A stretch of 27,481 nucleotides of DNA, taken from positions 1-27,481 of the IMG/VR virus record IMGVR_UViG_3300043775_001061. One strand, written 5' to 3'. A program made the position numbers and the translations under genes. The notes under the pieces are model-generated. The model worked only from the letters and a program-made list of their open reading frames with translations, searched no databases and had not been told where the DNA came from. Shown one piece after another: positions 9,305 to 14,907 of the stretch; the first letter of the stretch is position 1, and the number at the start of each line of letters is the position of its first letter. This DNA comes from a virus.

Positions 9305-9330
9305 GTTTTTGCTCCTAGCGTTATTTCCGC

Positions 9331-9359
9331 ATAAAAGCATGCTTTCAACATGTGGTCAA
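9331..9359 (-). promoter_or_regulatory. Sigma70-like promoter for the gene ending at 9005
   Basis: Minus strand: -35 TTGACC (9359-9354), 17-bp spacer containing an acatgt...gcatgc sequence, and -10 TTTTAT (9336-9331). The start codon at 9304 with its AGGAG box lies about 27 nt further downstream. Both hexamers are 4-5 of 6 to consensus and spacing is optimal. Confidence 0.6.
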
Positions 9360-9544
9360 GCGCCGAGCGAGGCGAGGGGGAGTTGGGGTGCCATGGGCGT
9401 TATATTTTGCACTTTTGCATCGATCATTACACGCACCCAATCTTACTGTAATACTAATATAACAGTTCCTTCTAAGGTTATATAGACTAAACTACCCTAA
9501 TAACCCATATGCCGATAAATGCTGCGTTTTGGCCTCGACGCGAC

Positions 9545-9585
9545 TACCCCAAACGATACCCCACGACTACCCCACGGCCACCCCA
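9545..9585. repeat. Phased (T/C)ACCCCA direct repeats
   Basis: Four direct copies of TACCCCA/CACCCCA start at 9545, 9557, 9568 and 9579, spaced 12, 11 and 11 bp, close to one DNA helix turn each, so a protein could bind all copies on one face. The first three are TACCCCA, the last CACCCCA. Confidence 0.55.
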
Positions 9586-9591
9586 AAACGA

Positions 9592-9617
9592 AAACGCGCG
9601 GACTAAGCCGCGCGTTT
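9592..9617 (-). terminator. Rho-independent-type terminator candidate
   Basis: Perfect 10-bp stem aaacgcgcgg / ccgcgcgttt with a 6-nt loop (9602-9607). Read on the minus strand it is followed by TTTTCGTTTT, a U-rich tail, so it probably ends the transcript from the 9658-9852 gene. A second, 18-bp perfect palindrome (ctacggctt/aagccgtag, 9622-9639) lies just before it. Confidence 0.6.
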
Positions 9618-9621
9618 CCAA

Positions 9622-9639
9622 CTACGGCTTAAGCCGTAG
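9622..9639. repeat. 18-bp perfect palindrome next to terminator
   Basis: Sequence ctacggcttaagccgtag is its own reverse complement. It lies 4 nt from the terminator stem and about 18 nt past the stop of the 9658-9852 gene. It can form a hairpin only with a very small loop, so it may act as a protein-binding palindrome or help termination. Confidence 0.5.
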
Positions 9640-9657
9640 CACGTCTACAAATCGGCG

Positions 9658-9852
9658 TCAAGCGGCGCGCAACACGACGCCATAGCGGCGCTCGCCGTCC
9701 TTGTTCTTGTACGTTTCGATTTGCGGATCTTCGCACCACCCGAAGTCACCGTCTGCAATCATGTTGTGGGCGGCGTCAACGGCGCGTTCGTGAGTGCGAT
9801 AGCCCCAGGCATACCAGTGATAGAGCGTACCCTTGCGAAGTATGGCGTTCAT
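9658..9852 (-). CDS. Hypothetical small protein, 64 aa
   Basis: 64 aa, ATG at 9852 with AGAGGAGAG upstream. Sequence starts MNAILRKGTLYHWYAWGYRT, with many aromatic residues, followed by AVDAAHNMIADGDFGWCEDP and a basic/charged end (NKDGERRYGVVLRAA). No membrane segment. It is the first and probably only gene of the minus transcript from the 9882-9910 promoter and ends just before the terminator hairpin. It therefore forms a divergent pair with the plus-strand early genes. Not recognised; size suggests a host-takeover or regulatory protein, which is inference. Confidence 0.62.
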   Translation of the reverse strand: MNAILRKGTLYHWYAWGYRTHERAVDAAHNMIADGDFGWCEDPQIETYKNKDGERRYGVVLRAA

Positions 9853-9881
9853 TGTTCACACTCTCCTCTGTTGATGGGGAT

Positions 9882-9910
9882 AACCTAGCACAAGCGCCAA
9901 CATGCTGCAA
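9882..9910 (-). promoter_or_regulatory. Promoter for the 9658-9852 gene
   Basis: Minus strand: -35 TTGCAG (9910-9905), 17-bp spacer, -10 TAGGTT (9887-9882). The -10 is weak (3/6) but is identical to the -10 of the divergent promoter on the plus strand. The AGAGGAGAG box and ATG at 9852 follow. Confidence 0.5.
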
Positions 9911-9943
9911 CATAATTCTTTACGCTCAGATGAAAAGAAATGT

Positions 9944-9972
9944 TTGACAAGCTTCCGAATGCCTGTTAGGTT
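9944..9972 (+). promoter_or_regulatory. Promoter for plus-strand early operon
   Basis: Consensus -35 TTGACA (9944-9949), 17-bp spacer, -10 TAGGTT (9967-9972), followed by AAAGAGG and the ATG at 10007. The -35 is perfect; the -10 is weak and lies within the 14-bp operator-like repeat, suggesting that its activity is regulated. Confidence 0.6.
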
Positions 9973-10006
9973 ATCCCCATAGCAACACGAAAAGAGGACA
10001 ACGACA

Positions 10007-10228
10007 ATGGTTGATTTCATCGAAGGCCTTCCGTCCGACGACGGCGCAGTGCGCGACGGATACACTCAGGAAGTCCATGCGTTCGCTGGCGAGGGTCTGG
10101 AGCTGTACCTGCTTGTGCAGCCTGACACTGACTTCGACGACTACTTCAAGGCATGGGACATGGATGCGCAAGAGTTCATCCTTGTCAGCGGTTGGATGTT
10201 CAACGTGGAAGTACAAGAAATTGTTTGA
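10007..10228 (+). CDS. Small acidic hypothetical protein, first early gene
   Basis: 73 aa, ATG at 10007 with AAAGAGGACAACGACA upstream. It is strongly acidic: DFIEGLPSDDGAV, then PDTDFDDYFKAWDMDAQEFI, with a hydrophobic/aromatic core (ELYLLV, FILVSGWMFNVEVQEIV). The low pI and size are typical of phage early inhibitors that mimic DNA or bind host proteins, but no family is recognised. Its stop codon lies inside the -35 of the next promoter (10225-10253), so this gene and the following ones can be read from separate starts. Confidence 0.65.
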   Translation: MVDFIEGLPSDDGAVRDGYTQEVHAFAGEGLELYLLVQPDTDFDDYFKAWDMDAQEFILVSGWMFNVEVQEIV

Positions 10229-10253
10229 CAACACTTACCACCGTCTATAATAT
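10225..10253 (+). promoter_or_regulatory. Strong sigma70-like promoter
   Basis: TTGACA (10225-10230), 17-bp spacer, TAATAT (10248-10253). This is the best promoter match in the window. The -10 runs into ATATCCACA, a one-mismatch DnaA box, similar to the TTATCCCCA at the other two early promoters. It would drive the gene at 10287 and the operon after it. Confidence 0.7.
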
Positions 10254-10286
10254 CCACAAACACAAGCAACTAGGGGAAACAATCCA

Positions 10287-10556
10287 ATGCCGACCATGTC
10301 AGAGATTAACGATACCAGACGCTGCGCAATCTTCACAAAGTACCTTGGACCGACCAACTACAGGCCCGGCCGCATCAAGGCATGGGCCAAGTCTGGCGGC
10401 AAGCTGTCAGTCACGATCAGATATCCTCACGAACTGAGCCAGTCGCAGGCGCACGCTGCGGCCGCCGTCGCCTTGTGCGACAAGATGGGCTGGACGTTTG
10501 GTCTACTGCATCAAGCGCACACTGAGAACGGCTGCGTTTTTGTGATGGGGCGCTAA
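10287..10556 (+). CDS. Hypothetical protein, 89 aa
   Basis: 89 aa, ATG at 10287 preceded by TAGGGGAAACAATCCA. The sequence has MSEINDTRRCAIFTKYLGPT, NYRPGRIKAWAKSGGKLSVT and a C-terminal CVFVMGR. The pattern KYLGPTNxRPxRIKA with a Lys/Arg-rich loop and alternating beta strands resembles small phage or plasmid proteins that are unnamed. The order of short beta, helix (QAHAAAAVALCDKMGW), beta suggests a mixed alpha/beta fold. First gene after the 10225-10253 promoter; function unknown. Confidence 0.65.
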   Translation: MPTMSEINDTRRCAIFTKYLGPTNYRPGRIKAWAKSGGKLSVTIRYPHELSQSQAHAAAAVALCDKMGWTFGLLHQAHTENGCVFVMGR

Positions 10557-10853: not shown

Positions 10854-11144
10854 GTGTTCTACATTCCCGTTACCGCTACGGTCTGGAAGGATGGCATTGT
10901 GCTATTCGAGACGGATTGCGAAGCCCGCATAGAATACGAAATCGTCGACGGGCTGCCGGATTGGGACGTGACCGAGTTTCATTTCGACGCGGTCGGTACT
11001 GAGCCCGGCAAGCGCATTTATACCAAGATCACCCGCACGGAACCGCTATTCAAAATCCTCTATCAGGATCTTGACCGTGAATGGCTGCATGAACAAGTCA
11101 TGGAAGCCGTAATCAGCAACGGGGAGATCAGCCGCTATGCGTGA
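10854..11144 (+). CDS. Hypothetical protein, 96 aa, GTG start
   Basis: 96 aa, start GTG at 10854 with an excellent AGGAGGATACA box 5-6 nt upstream, which decides this start. The protein (YIPVTATVWKDGIVLFETDC...) has a beta-rich N-terminal half and an acidic C-terminal helix (LYQDLDREWLHEQVMEAVIS). It overlaps the next gene by 8 nt. No catalytic motif. A small phage early protein with unknown role. Confidence 0.6.
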   Translation: MFYIPVTATVWKDGIVLFETDCEARIEYEIVDGLPDWDVTEFHFDAVGTEPGKRIYTKITRTEPLFKILYQDLDREWLHEQVMEAVISNGEISRYA

Positions 11145-11400
11145 CTATACGGACATGATGAACATGGCGCCGGCGGAACTGGTCCGGCATGCGCTTGATT
11201 GCGCCAAGGTGGGCATTCTCTCGATTGCGCTTGTGGAAGCGCTGGCGGTGCAGTTGAGAGACACCGACGAGCTATGCGAGAAACTGCACCACGAGAACGC
11301 GGGCTTGCAGGTTGACCTGGACGAAGCGATAAACGCGCGCGACGAGTGGCATGGTCTCGCCGAACAACTGAACGGCGTGGTGAAAGAATGGAACCGTTGA
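11137..11400 (+). CDS. Coiled-coil hypothetical protein
   Basis: 87 aa, ATG at 11137, overlapping the previous gene by 8 nt. The N-terminal half (MMNMAPAELVRHALDCAKVG) is helical and hydrophobic. The rest, LRDTDELCEKLHHENAGLQV and DLDEAINARDEWHGLAEQLN, has heptad-like Leu/Ile spacing for a coiled coil. Its ORF region also contains the next start at 11388, within 13 nt of its stop. Not recognised; possibly an oligomeric regulator or scaffold-like protein. Confidence 0.58.
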   Translation: MRDYTDMMNMAPAELVRHALDCAKVGILSIALVEALAVQLRDTDELCEKLHHENAGLQVDLDEAINARDEWHGLAEQLNGVVKEWNR

Positions 11401-11642
11401 GCGCGCACTGGCAAGCAAACGTCGCCGGCCTTGACGACGTCGACCTGTTGCGTTTCCTGGCGGCCGTCAAGATCCGCCTGGACAATCACGCGGCAGCGCT
11501 AGAGGCGGCCGCGCAGGAAGCCCGGCGCCGGAACCTGCTCCCGACAGAAAAGGACGGCACCAAGGTGCCGCCTAGTCTGCATGTGGGGAAGGAAACGAGT
11601 GCAACTGTAACAGAAAGCGTGACAGATGGAAAGAGAATTTAG
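11388..11642 (+). CDS. Hypothetical helical protein, 84 aa
   Basis: 84 aa. I chose the ATG at 11388 (MEPLSAHWQANVAGLDDVDL) because GAAAG lies upstream and the longer frame from 11346 would largely overlap the preceding gene. A central helix RFLAAVKIRLDNHAAALEAA and QEARRRNLLPTEKDG points to an Ala/Glu/Arg-rich coil; the C-terminus is polar. Its last 17 nt overlap the start of the DnaA-IV-like gene, suggesting coupling. Function unknown. Confidence 0.55.
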   Translation: MEPLSAHWQANVAGLDDVDLLRFLAAVKIRLDNHAAALEAAAQEARRRNLLPTEKDGTKVPPSLHVGKETSATVTESVTDGKRI

Positions 11643-12000
11643 CATTGCCCGGCTCTGGCAGGCGCACCAAGCCCACATGGCGGAACAGCGCCGCCGCTAT
11701 CCCGCAAAGCGGATCGTGGCCGCCGTGGCGGAGGCTCACGAGCTGACGGTAGACGAGCTGCACAGCATCCGGCGCCCGCGCCGCTACTGCCACGCGCGCC
11801 ACCACGCGGCCTGGGAACTACGCCGACGCCGGCAGGACCTGGGCCTGAGCCAGATTGCGGCGCACATCAACCGGGCGGACCACACGACCGCCCACCACAG
11901 CTACACGACGTTCGCGCGCATGGTGGCGCAGGGCCGCTACGCTGCCGAGCGCGCCCGCGTCGAGGCCATTCTGGCGGAGGACGCATGCTCTTCTTTATAG
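11626..12000 (+). CDS. DnaA domain IV-like DNA-binding protein
   Basis: 124 aa, ATG at 11626. The central part, VAEAHELTVDELHSIRRPRR then YCHARHHAAWELRRRRQDLG and LSQIAAHINRADHTTAHHSY, matches the C-terminal double-stranded DNA-binding domain of DnaA. In DnaA the signature is an Arg-rich helix, an ARHxAxYLxR segment, LSxIGxxxGxRDHTT and a final His/Tyr stretch; here RHHAAWELRR and RADHTTAHHS fit. No AAA+ domain I-III is present, so it cannot hydrolyse ATP or open an origin by itself. It probably binds DnaA boxes to regulate transcription or steer the host DnaA. Such stand-alone DnaA-IV proteins occur in alphaproteobacterial phages and genomes. Sites resembling DnaA boxes sit at three nearby promoters. 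Confidence 0.85.
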   Translation: MEREFSIARLWQAHQAHMAEQRRRYPAKRIVAAVAEAHELTVDELHSIRRPRRYCHARHHAAWELRRRRQDLGLSQIAAHINRADHTTAHHSYTTFARMVAQGRYAAERARVEAILAEDACSSL

Positions 12001-12422: not shown

Positions 12423-12469
12423 TCGGTATCCTCATCGCCGCCGTGCTGCTGGCATGGCTTGACCTTTAA
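12410..12469 (+). CDS. Possible 19-aa hydrophobic peptide
   Basis: ATG at 12410 opens a frame MAAVIGILIAAVLLAWLDL ending TAA at 12467-12469, which overlaps the TAA of the convergent primase-helicase gene on the other strand. A 19-residue hydrophobic peptide of this kind could be a real membrane microprotein or merely chance in GC-rich DNA. It would need ribosome profiling to confirm. Confidence 0.25.
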   Translation: MAAVIGILIAAVLLAWLDL

Positions 12470-14772
12470 CTCTTAACCAGCTTCAAACCCTGCTCCGGCG
12501 CCTGTTCAACCATGCGCCGGAGTTCGCTTTTTGTATGTGTGCGCACCATATCCTCGCGCGCCCAAATGACCTTTTTGGTCTGATATTCGGCTGACTTGAC
12601 CATTCCCAAGTCGATCCACCCAGCTTCTTTGAGCGCATGCAGGATGGCGGCCGGCACCACCTTCGCCCCGTTGGGGCTGCCGGATTGCAGGGCGTTGCAG
12701 ATCCGATGCAACGGTGACGCCACGACACCGGCCGCAAACTCCGGTGACGGGCGCTGGATCTGCTCCACAATGTAGCTTTCGGCCATGCTGCGGCCGTTCT
12801 CGATCAGCCGTTCCTTGTACTCGGTCCACAGGGGCGTGGCCTTGGGATTGAACGCCGAGACGTCGCGCAAGGCCAGCCACTTGGCTACGCGGGCCATCCC
12901 GCCGTGCTTGTACCAAGCCCACAACGCCTTGCCCTCATCCTCCGTCATGCGCGGGGCGTCGGACCAGATGCAGAACCACCGACGGTCTTGCGTCTCCAGC
13001 GTGATCGGGACCGAATGGTTCGAGAACGCCAGCACGAACACGCGGTTAACCATGTCATACGGGTGCAGGCCCTTGCGCTCGATGGTCAGCGTATCAGGCG
13101 GGGCGGCAATGATCGGCTTGAGGCTGTTCGCCAACGCGCGGCGCTCGGCTGCTTCCGGTTCCTTCAACTCGTTCAGGATCATGATTTCGCTTTCCAAGGC
13201 ATAGCCCCAGCGCGAATTGACGTTCTTGCCGTCCACCAGGCCACGGTTGCGCATGCCGGGGCCACAGACCGCCCACAGGAACGGTGCCCACAACGTGTCC
13301 TTGCCGCAGCCTTGGTCGCCGCCGTGCAGCACCGCGTGGTTGATCTTGACCTGCGGGTTCTGCAACTTGTAGGCCATAACGTTGAACACATGCTCGCGCT
13401 CTTGCGCGTCCGGTATCAGCAACTCGGCATGGTCCAGCCACACGCCGATGTCGCCGCTTGGCGGCACGCCGGACAGGTCTGGCCGCGCGTCCACCCAGCG
13501 GTTGCCGTAGACGTCGCCTTCGAGCGACACCAGCACGCTGTCGCCTGCGGCGTAGGTGATGCCCTCCAGCACGCGGGCACCCGCCGACTGGCGGTTCTCG
13601 TCGTAACAGACGGACGCCTCGACGCGGCGCTCGGTGTGGATCGACTTGCACGACACATGGCGGAACACGGCATTGAAGGCCGCGCGCGACATCTCACGAC
13701 GGCTCGCCAGGTCGAAGTAAGTGTCATCTGACACGACGTAGGCAAAACGCTCGTACCAGCTTGCCTTGTCAAGGCGGCCCAACTCCTTGCGCTCCACCTC
13801 GGCGATGACCTCCGACGCGGTGTCGCGGAACATGTCGTTGGGCTTCAAAGCCTCGGCCACCGCCGCCATGCGCTCAGCGACCAACTCCTCGCGGAAGCCC
13901 GGCTGGACCTTGGGTCCACCCTGCTCGCCCACCCACGCAAGGAAGGCGTTGCTGTCCAGATGCTCGCAGTGGCTGTGGTAACAGCAGAATGCCCGGTTGA
14001 CGGGCGAATAGCGGCCCTCGATCTGGCCGTCGGTGTGTGCTGCATTGTTGGGGCACACCACGCCGCACCAGCCCTCTTGGTTGACGTGGGACAGCACCAG
14101 CCCCTGATCGGACAGCCAGCGCAGGACGCTGTCGCTGCCGGTGTCGCGGATTTTGATGGATGTGATGCCTTGCCCCTCGCACGGTCCGGGTGTAACCTGA
14201 AGGGCTGCGCAAATGTCTTCTAGCGTGTACTCGCGGCCGGGCGTGAACTCCACCAGACGCGCCGCGAAGCTGTCGCGCCCCGGCTTCTGGTTGATCGAGC
14301 CGGGCAGACGGCAGTTGCGGACGGCATTCGTGGCGCCCGGATCGGTGTAGCCAGCGGCCGCGATGGCCGTGATGGCTGCCGTGAAGTCGCCCTTGCTGGG
14401 CTGTTCGCTGAAGGCGTAGCCCCACTGGAACGAACCTGCCGACGTCTCGATGATCCATGTGGGCGGCAGCGGGGGCACCTTGGACTTGGTGCCAATGTCG
14501 TCCAGCATCATGAACAGGACGTATTCGCAATGCGCCGCAGATGCTGACGGCTTGCCGCCATCGAAGCGGGACGCAATAAAGCTGCCGGTGTTGACGAACC
14601 AACTCTCGCCGTCCTTGCGCTTGTGCGCCGGCAGGAAGGCGGGCCAGGTGTAGCGCGGGCTGCCGTCGGCGTGTAGCACGGGCGCACCGTCGCGCATGAC
14701 CGGACGTTGCCGGACGATCAGCGCTGTCTCGCCGGCTGGTGCCAGCTTGACCAGATAGTCAAGTAATTCCAT
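12466..14772 (-). CDS. Bifunctional primase-helicase (AEP-type primase plus DUF5906/VirE-like helicase)
   Basis: 768 aa. The start is ATG at 14772 with AAGGGACGG upstream; an extension to 14904 would need a TTG start and crosses another gene. N-terminal part (about 80-180) resembles RepB/AEP primases: YVLFMMLDDIGTKSK (acidic pair at 91-92) and RNCRLPGSINQKPGRDS. A middle Cys/His cluster (C236, C240, C263, C264, C269) may bind zinc. The C-terminal superfamily 3-like helicase has Walker A at 484-493 (GGDQGCGKDT), Walker B at 529-536 (EIMILNEL), a sensor FSN at 583-585 and QDRRW at 595-599 as possible Arg finger. It makes primers and unwinds DNA at the fork. Convergent with the plus operon: stop codons overlap. 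Upstream is a small membrane-protein gene. Confidence 0.9.
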   Translation of the reverse strand: MELLDYLVKLAPAGETALIVRQRPVMRDGAPVLHADGSPRYTWPAFLPAHKRKDGESWFVNTGSFIASRFDGGKPSASAAHCEYVLFMMLDDIGTKSKVPPLPPTWIIETSAGSFQWGYAFSEQPSKGDFTAAITAIAAAGYTDPGATNAVRNCRLPGSINQKPGRDSFAARLVEFTPGREYTLEDICAALQVTPGPCEGQGITSIKIRDTGSDSVLRWLSDQGLVLSHVNQEGWCGVVCPNNAAHTDGQIEGRYSPVNRAFCCYHSHCEHLDSNAFLAWVGEQGGPKVQPGFREELVAERMAAVAEALKPNDMFRDTASEVIAEVERKELGRLDKASWYERFAYVVSDDTYFDLASRREMSRAAFNAVFRHVSCKSIHTERRVEASVCYDENRQSAGARVLEGITYAAGDSVLVSLEGDVYGNRWVDARPDLSGVPPSGDIGVWLDHAELLIPDAQEREHVFNVMAYKLQNPQVKINHAVLHGGDQGCGKDTLWAPFLWAVCGPGMRNRGLVDGKNVNSRWGYALESEIMILNELKEPEAAERRALANSLKPIIAAPPDTLTIERKGLHPYDMVNRVFVLAFSNHSVPITLETQDRRWFCIWSDAPRMTEDEGKALWAWYKHGGMARVAKWLALRDVSAFNPKATPLWTEYKERLIENGRSMAESYIVEQIQRPSPEFAAGVVASPLHRICNALQSGSPNGAKVVPAAILHALKEAGWIDLGMVKSAEYQTKKVIWAREDMVRTHTKSELRRMVEQAPEQGLKLVKS

Positions 14773-14791
14773 GTTTCCGTCCCTTGTAAGA

Positions 14792-14884
14792 TTACTCGTC
14801 GCGGTCGCCCACGACGAAAAAAGCCCACGCAATGGTCCCCACGACGCACGACGCAAGTATGTAGACAAGCATAAACGATACCAT
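14792..14884 (-). CDS. 30-aa single-pass membrane protein
   Basis: 30 aa, ATG at 14884 with AGGAACCAAAC upstream. MVSFMLVYILASCVVGTIAW then AFFVVGDRDE: one transmembrane helix and an acidic end. It lies between polymerase and primase-helicase genes on the same strand, so it is translated from the same message, or from the region after the 14908-14942 hairpin. Too short for any family; the regular composition and a good ribosome-binding site support coding. Confidence 0.5.
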   Translation of the reverse strand: MVSFMLVYILASCVVGTIAWAFFVVGDRDE

Positions 14885-14907
14885 GTTTGGTTCCTAGCAT
14901 CCAAAGT

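Follow-up and report, generated by a model that had tools for sequence, protein, structure and literature searches.

Three sites that resemble DnaA boxes overlie the core promoters of a presumed early region in an environmental phage genome, and such sites are a conserved feature, apparently under selection, of the phage clade that carries a gene for a stand-alone DnaA domain IV protein (DnaA-IV). We hold with moderate confidence that the three sites act as operators for the phage's own DnaA-IV protein, which would be a negative autoregulator that blocks the core promoters. The window, i.e. the whole stretch of DNA that was analysed, is the 27,481-bp IMG/VR virus contig IMGVR_UViG_3300043775_001061 of a podovirus-type lineage, and the phage family carrying these sites is freshwater. 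Its nearest named relatives are MW202483 (uncultured Podoviridae from Manatee Spring, with a DnaA-HTH gene of its own) and OR003940 (phage DSL-LC05). Host calls from genome bins were inconsistent (Rhodoferax, Burkholderiales, Methylococcaceae, Patescibacteria and others) and were discarded.

The region is presumed to be early from its gene order. It is flanked by terminase genes and by a convergent primase/helicase gene (12466..14904, minus strand) that forms the border of the early operon, and it contains the divergent promoters PL and PR and, further downstream, a third promoter P3. The first leftward gene from PL is a 64-aa ORF (9658..9852, minus strand) with homologues in relatives, and the first gene behind PR is a 73-aa ORF (10007..10228, plus strand); searches of Pfam and PHROG gave no match for either. 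P3 is followed by an 89-aa ORF (10287..10556, plus strand; phrog_3199, function unknown). Three small early ORFs of kept synteny (10854-11144, 11137-11400 and 11388-11642, plus strand) lie between P3 and the DnaA-IV gene (11626..12000, plus strand), which encodes 124 aa and is distal in the operon. The synteny of the early region is kept down to about 74% primase identity, and throughout the clade the DnaA-IV gene lies downstream of P3 and PR, in support of the earlier assignment of this gene to the operon that they drive.

PL (9882..9910, minus strand) consists of TTGCAG (9910-9905), a 17-nt spacer and the -10 element TAGGTT (9887-9882), and PR (9944..9972, plus strand) of TTGACA (9944-9949), a 17-nt spacer and the same -10 element (9967-9972). 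P3 (10225..10253, plus strand) starts with TTGACA (10225-10230) and has either TATAAT, after 15 nt, or TAATAT, after 17 nt, as its -10 element. A strict promoter-consensus scan called P3 alone; PR is conserved in the 13 genomes compared and PL, with both -35 and -10, in 12. The original prediction had placed identical, inverted 14-bp sequences at the divergent promoters, and these copies of TAGGTTATCCCCAT proved to be exact (9874-9887, minus strand; 9967-9980, plus strand) and the only ones in the whole contig. Each spans the -10 element, the discriminator and about +1 of PL or PR, and includes the box-like site TTATCCCCA (9875..9883, minus strand, at PL; 9971..9979, plus strand, at PR). P3 ends, again as predicted, in ATATCCACA (10250..10258, plus strand). 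All three sites are one mismatch away from the DnaA box consensus TTATNCACA, as had been claimed, and an exact box TTWTNCACA is present at none of them (TTATCCCCA, TTATCCCCA and ATATCCACA). A promoter duplication was rejected as the origin of the identical 14-mers: PL and PR have unlike spacers and -35 elements, and their versions in relatives differ as well. With at most one mismatch to TTATCCACA, the window holds four boxes against a shuffle mean of 2.6, which is not above chance. The case rests on position, on the exact inverted pair and on conservation in relatives, not on this count.

The product of 11626-12000 had been described as DnaA-IV-like, which was confirmed by profile, by sequence matches in the PDB and by predicted fold. 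It matches PF08299 (Bac_DnaA_C) with an E-value of 1.2e-9 and 38.5 bits, the curated cut-off being 31.5, and its sequence matches in the PDB are DnaA without exception. The AlphaFold model is compact, with seven helices and a pLDDT of 94.8; the top nine fold matches in the PDB are all DnaA, with a TMt of 0.81 for the M. tuberculosis DnaA-DBD (3pvp), and E. coli DnaA domain IV (1j1v) matches with a TMt of 0.76. The recognition helix RADHTTAHHSY aligns with E. coli RDHTTVLHAC and contains the D-H-T signature (433-435), and the basic-loop arginine is present in ARHHAAWELRRRR, which aligns with E. coli ARPRQMAM. The base-contacting position 438 is His in the window protein and Leu in E. coli DnaA. 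The list of base-contacting residues was taken from PMC5043019; a literature look-up for the exact contacts Asp433/His434/Thr435/Leu438 yielded nothing useful. The AAA+ ATPase domain III of a full DnaA initiator is absent, PF08299 being the sole match above cut-off, as are the central omega-binding region and the C-terminal DNA-binding domain of a GafA-type protein. The protein has no match in PHROGs, and tblastn against 50,697 phage records found no cultured relative with the same gene.

Among the relatives, the DnaA-IV proteins of L022, L030, L032, L036, L154, L172 and L173 have an extra N-terminal stretch of about 60-70 aa (DATEIERRLRAYLDELVRLAGGPLTVWRVAR) that the window protein lacks. A tandem pair of different DnaA-IV genes, with the helices NHATALNSV and DHTTAIHSY, occurs in L140 (3804-4744) and L141 (5869-6809), and several far genomes also have two DnaA-IV genes (L042, L089, L090).

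Relatives were gathered via the DnaA-IV protein (13 loci), the primase (80 loci) and a DnaA-IV profile (42 loci). Conservation at PR across the 13 close genomes is 99% for the 9-bp box, 91% for the -10 element and 54% for the spacer. Only the window virus and L003, which is identical to it, have PL and PR boxes that match exactly; PL of the remaining close relatives reads TTTTCCCCA, which is still of the TTWTNCACA type with a C at position 7. In L009 the -10 element has decayed to CATCTT and TTATCCCCAT is retained. TTATCCACA stands at PR of L008, L026 and L145, and in the latter two also at P3, where the -10 context differs from that of PR. TTATGCACA is located at PR of L022, L027 and L038 and at PL of L039, TTATTCACA or TTGTTCACA at PL of L025, L034, L035 and L037, and the box form of L024 is CTATTCACA. 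P3 in relatives carries CTTTCCACA, TTATCCACA (L026, L145) or CTATCCACA (L039). L025, L034 and L037 have their PR box on the other strand (GTATTCACA), over that same -10 element. Exact boxes occur at the same promoters in L008, L022, L026, L037, L039 and L145. The variation tracks the DnaA consensus, with position 5 free (C, G or T) and position 3 being A or T, plus G.

In window-type phages, position 7 of the box is a C, against the consensus, at PL and at nearly all PR, and among the near groups these phages alone have His at position 438; this association is a single evolutionary event. Coevolution of residue 435 with box position 5 (Thr/Ser with C/G, Ala/Val with T) was also considered. It was clean in the first 14 genomes and was ruled out by L154 (Val, box GTATGCACA) and L173 (Ala, box CTATGCACA).

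Boxes with at most one mismatch to TTWTNCACA were counted behind -35-like hexamers in 28 contigs. They follow 37 of 565 such anchors in the early zone and 9 of 938 in the remainder of these contigs (odds ratio 7.2, p=2e-9, the p-values being a guide only that overstates independence, because the genomes tested are related); for perfect boxes the numbers are 7 and 0. Reversed and permuted or shuffled control motifs gave far weaker enrichment or none. A permutation test was performed with TTGACA-like anchors in 14 diverged near relatives and all 5,040 permutations of the consensus. It yielded six perfect TTATNCACA boxes where 0.19 were expected, and 23 boxes with at most one mismatch where 5.5 were expected. 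The few permutations that score equally well include register shifts of the box motif together with the adjoining leader. Chance is thus rejected as an explanation by the anchored, permutation and internal-control tests, although the count in the window is itself at chance level.

The original prediction proposed to check whether the boxes co-vary with the gene in relatives, and named relatives that keep the gene and lose the motif as evidence against it. As to the first, boxes are enriched only in the clade that has the gene; L027 and L028 have boxes and no domain IV, through a deletion described below. As to the second, the exact motif is indeed lost in gene-bearing relatives, but most of them carry another form of DnaA box at that place (TTATGCACA, TTRTTCACA or the opposite-strand GTATTCACA); a gene without any box form is limited to one diverged subgroup and to distant families whose recognition helix has changed. 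The subgroup is that of the DHATMIHSL helix (L036, L155, L163, L165 and others). These genomes and L030 have the gene but no anchored box, a point against the proposed model. Their PR spacer repeatedly contains TGTG, which reads CACA on the opposite strand, and PL has a YCAC core; all that remains is this CACA core, which is no more than suggestive. In the distant families, which have a DPTT instead of a DHTT helix (L062, L063, L065, L068), a box upstream of the gene is absent; boxes there are at chance level, in keeping with gene and sites travelling together.

L027 and L028, contigs from two metagenomes that are 99.8% identical, represent the only near relative without domain IV, and their boxes are intact. 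Relative to L022 and L038, the gene has suffered a clean 864-bp deletion (at about 8348 in L027) with flanks 94-95% identical to L038, and its N-terminus remains. The deletion is evidently very recent, and the intact boxes therefore do not discriminate on who binds; with the deletion fresh and the N-terminus in place, the pair was set aside as evidence for host DnaA. As a natural knock-out it indicates that this lineage, at least, can do without the DnaA-IV gene.

We infer that the sites would be bound by the phage protein and not by host DnaA, and that binding would repress. Three observations favour the phage protein: the sites are restricted to the clade with the gene, window-type phages pair the C7 box with their unique His 438, and the gene lies in the operon that the sites would control, the box-like sites at PR and P3 overlapping the promoters upstream of it. 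Repression is favoured by the location of all variants, whichever their orientation, on the core promoter. All box positions and orientations seen fall inside the RNA polymerase footprint, a placement that suits steric repression.

According to this model, host RNA polymerase would fire PL, PR and P3 early in infection, and the distal gene of the rightward operon would give rise to the 124-aa protein, a DnaA-box-binding domain with no ATPase. On accumulating, the protein would bind the box across the -10 end and start point of each early promoter and keep RNA polymerase out, so that the early genes, including its own, would be shut down. The resulting circuit would be a delayed negative feedback with Cro-like logic. 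An extended version, which we consider unlikely, is that a captured host DnaA domain serves as master repressor of the early genes and also occupies the host oriC, turning off early genes and host initiation, the dialects of protein and box having drifted together; occupancy of oriC by the same protein is proposed because the boxes stay host-type in some members (TTATCCACA).

Alternatively, the boxes could serve host DnaA, in which case early transcription would respond to how much DnaA the host has or to its state of replication, and competition for the boxes by the phage DnaA-IV protein would modulate this response. The boxes fit the bacterial consensus TTWTNCACA (PMC5835720), from which the host's own box preference may differ. 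A precedent for host DnaA near phage promoters is given for lambda in PMC3985674 and works that it cites, and the boxes of L027 and L028 persist after the loss of domain IV. However, far relatives have boxes only at chance level, both with the DnaA-IV gene (n=11) and without it (n=46), and the 46 contigs without the gene speak against host DnaA. So does the C at position 7, which is conserved in window-type phages and disallowed by the consensus. Taken together, a role for host DnaA at these sites appears rather improbable.

Another explanation is that there is no operator, the motif being the -10 element, discriminator, start and 5' leader (TTATNCACATNNCAACA...AAGG) of one promoter class with an incidental likeness to the box. 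The motif does extend from -12 to about +2, a CATNNCAACA-type leader is common to PL, PR and P3 in many genomes, and leader-register motifs equal the box score in the permutation test. A constraint on the transcript leader nevertheless fails as an explanation for the opposite-strand boxes at PR of L025, L034 and L037. Moreover, TTAT is kept in L009 despite the decay of its -10 element, perfect TTATCCACA boxes are found at two promoters of L026 and of L145 in differing -10 contexts, and the same operon encodes a DnaA box-binding domain, which makes an incidental likeness decidedly unlikely. It is very unlikely that DnaA-IV is an activator or promoter-switch factor whose boxes recruit polymerase. 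The pattern for such a role is GafA, whose DnaA-like N-terminal domain is needed for RcGTA promoter activation and which binds polymerase via omega (PMC9638019). GafA also contains an omega-binding region in its centre and a DNA-binding domain at its C-terminus, where the phage protein has only domain IV plus flanking helices; the phage site lies on -10/+1 in positions and orientations whose variation activators seldom tolerate; and the early promoters have to be active before any of the protein is made.

Other features were observed in and near the early region. In about 20 relatives (L022, L025, L026, L030, L031, L036, L145, L173 and others) a covarying palindrome rich in GC makes up the 18-nt P3 spacer; this palindrome is absent from the P3 spacer of the window (10231-10247) and from L010, L011 and L017. 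Its arms are GGGCGGC/GCCGCCC, AGGCGGC/GCCGCCT, GGGCAGC/GCTGCCC, GGGGCGA/TCGCCCC, GGGGCAA/TTGCCCC and GGGGGC/GCCCCC. Over 15 relatives the arms pair at 95.8%, compared with 84.4% when shuffled and 33-47% when slid, with 11 double-changed cells and compensatory change in five of eight pairs. The palindrome may be a second (dimer) operator, or an RNA hairpin or terminator of the PR read-through transcript, the tail of which would also serve as the P3 -10 element.

The AT-rich intergenic stretch 9305-9640 of the window contains CGACTACCCCA-type repeats (9541, 9564, 9575) and hairpins (9592-9617, 9622-9639) and is a candidate replication origin. A perfect TTATCCACA is present left of PL in L005, L010 and L012, apparently in the corresponding stretch. 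At the start of the terminase small subunit gene (about 8800 in the window, minus strand) a promoter-like TTGACC...TAGTTTACCGCCATG was found in L009 and L014, and TACTTTACCGCCATG in the window; with the start codon at about +1, a leaderless terminase transcript is possible.

DnaA domain IV proteins are common in environmental viruses of this kind (29 of the 50 records searched), and the literature searched yielded no assigned role for those of phages. Reading the sites as operators of the phage protein provides a concrete predicted job and exact target sites for one of them. In addition, variation in both the box and the recognition helix across approximately 30 related genomes provides natural material for learning how DnaA domain IV recognises its box.

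The open-access papers searched contain no account of a stand-alone DnaA domain IV protein that represses phage early genes. In lambda Cro and phage early repressors, an early product later damps divergent early promoters. The likeness to Cro lies in this inferred logic, whereas the phage protein has the DnaA domain IV fold, its sites are asymmetric and it is a distal product of the operon. Lambda itself has DnaA boxes downstream of pO that were footprinted, and DnaA stimulates transcription at ori-lambda, as described in PMC3985674 and works that it cites. Both phages have DnaA boxes or box-like sites beside early promoters, but lambda uses host DnaA without the involvement of a DnaA-domain protein of its own. 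Bacterial DnaA is a repressor and autoregulator at DnaA boxes, as at dnaA2p and mioC, with the consensus TTWTNCACA (PMC5835720). It shares with the phage protein domain IV, the box consensus and, as a prediction on the phage side, repression including autoregulation. In contrast, the phage protein has no AAA+ domain or ATP switch, and its sites are single and placed on the -10/+1 of early promoters, with C7 in the window-type boxes. GafA of the Rhodobacter capsulatus GTA has a DnaA-like N-terminal DNA-binding domain, and a split DnaA-like gene adjoins gafA in Hyphomicrobiales, according to PMC9638019; in the sections drawn on here, the binding of GafA to GTA promoters is not described as DnaA-box recognition. 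GafA and the phage protein are both phage-derived elements with a DnaA-like domain for the control of phage-type promoters and for autoregulation, which on the phage side are predictions. Yet GafA is an activator built of three parts, one of which binds omega, whereas the phage protein consists of nothing but domain IV and has sites placed as befits repression.
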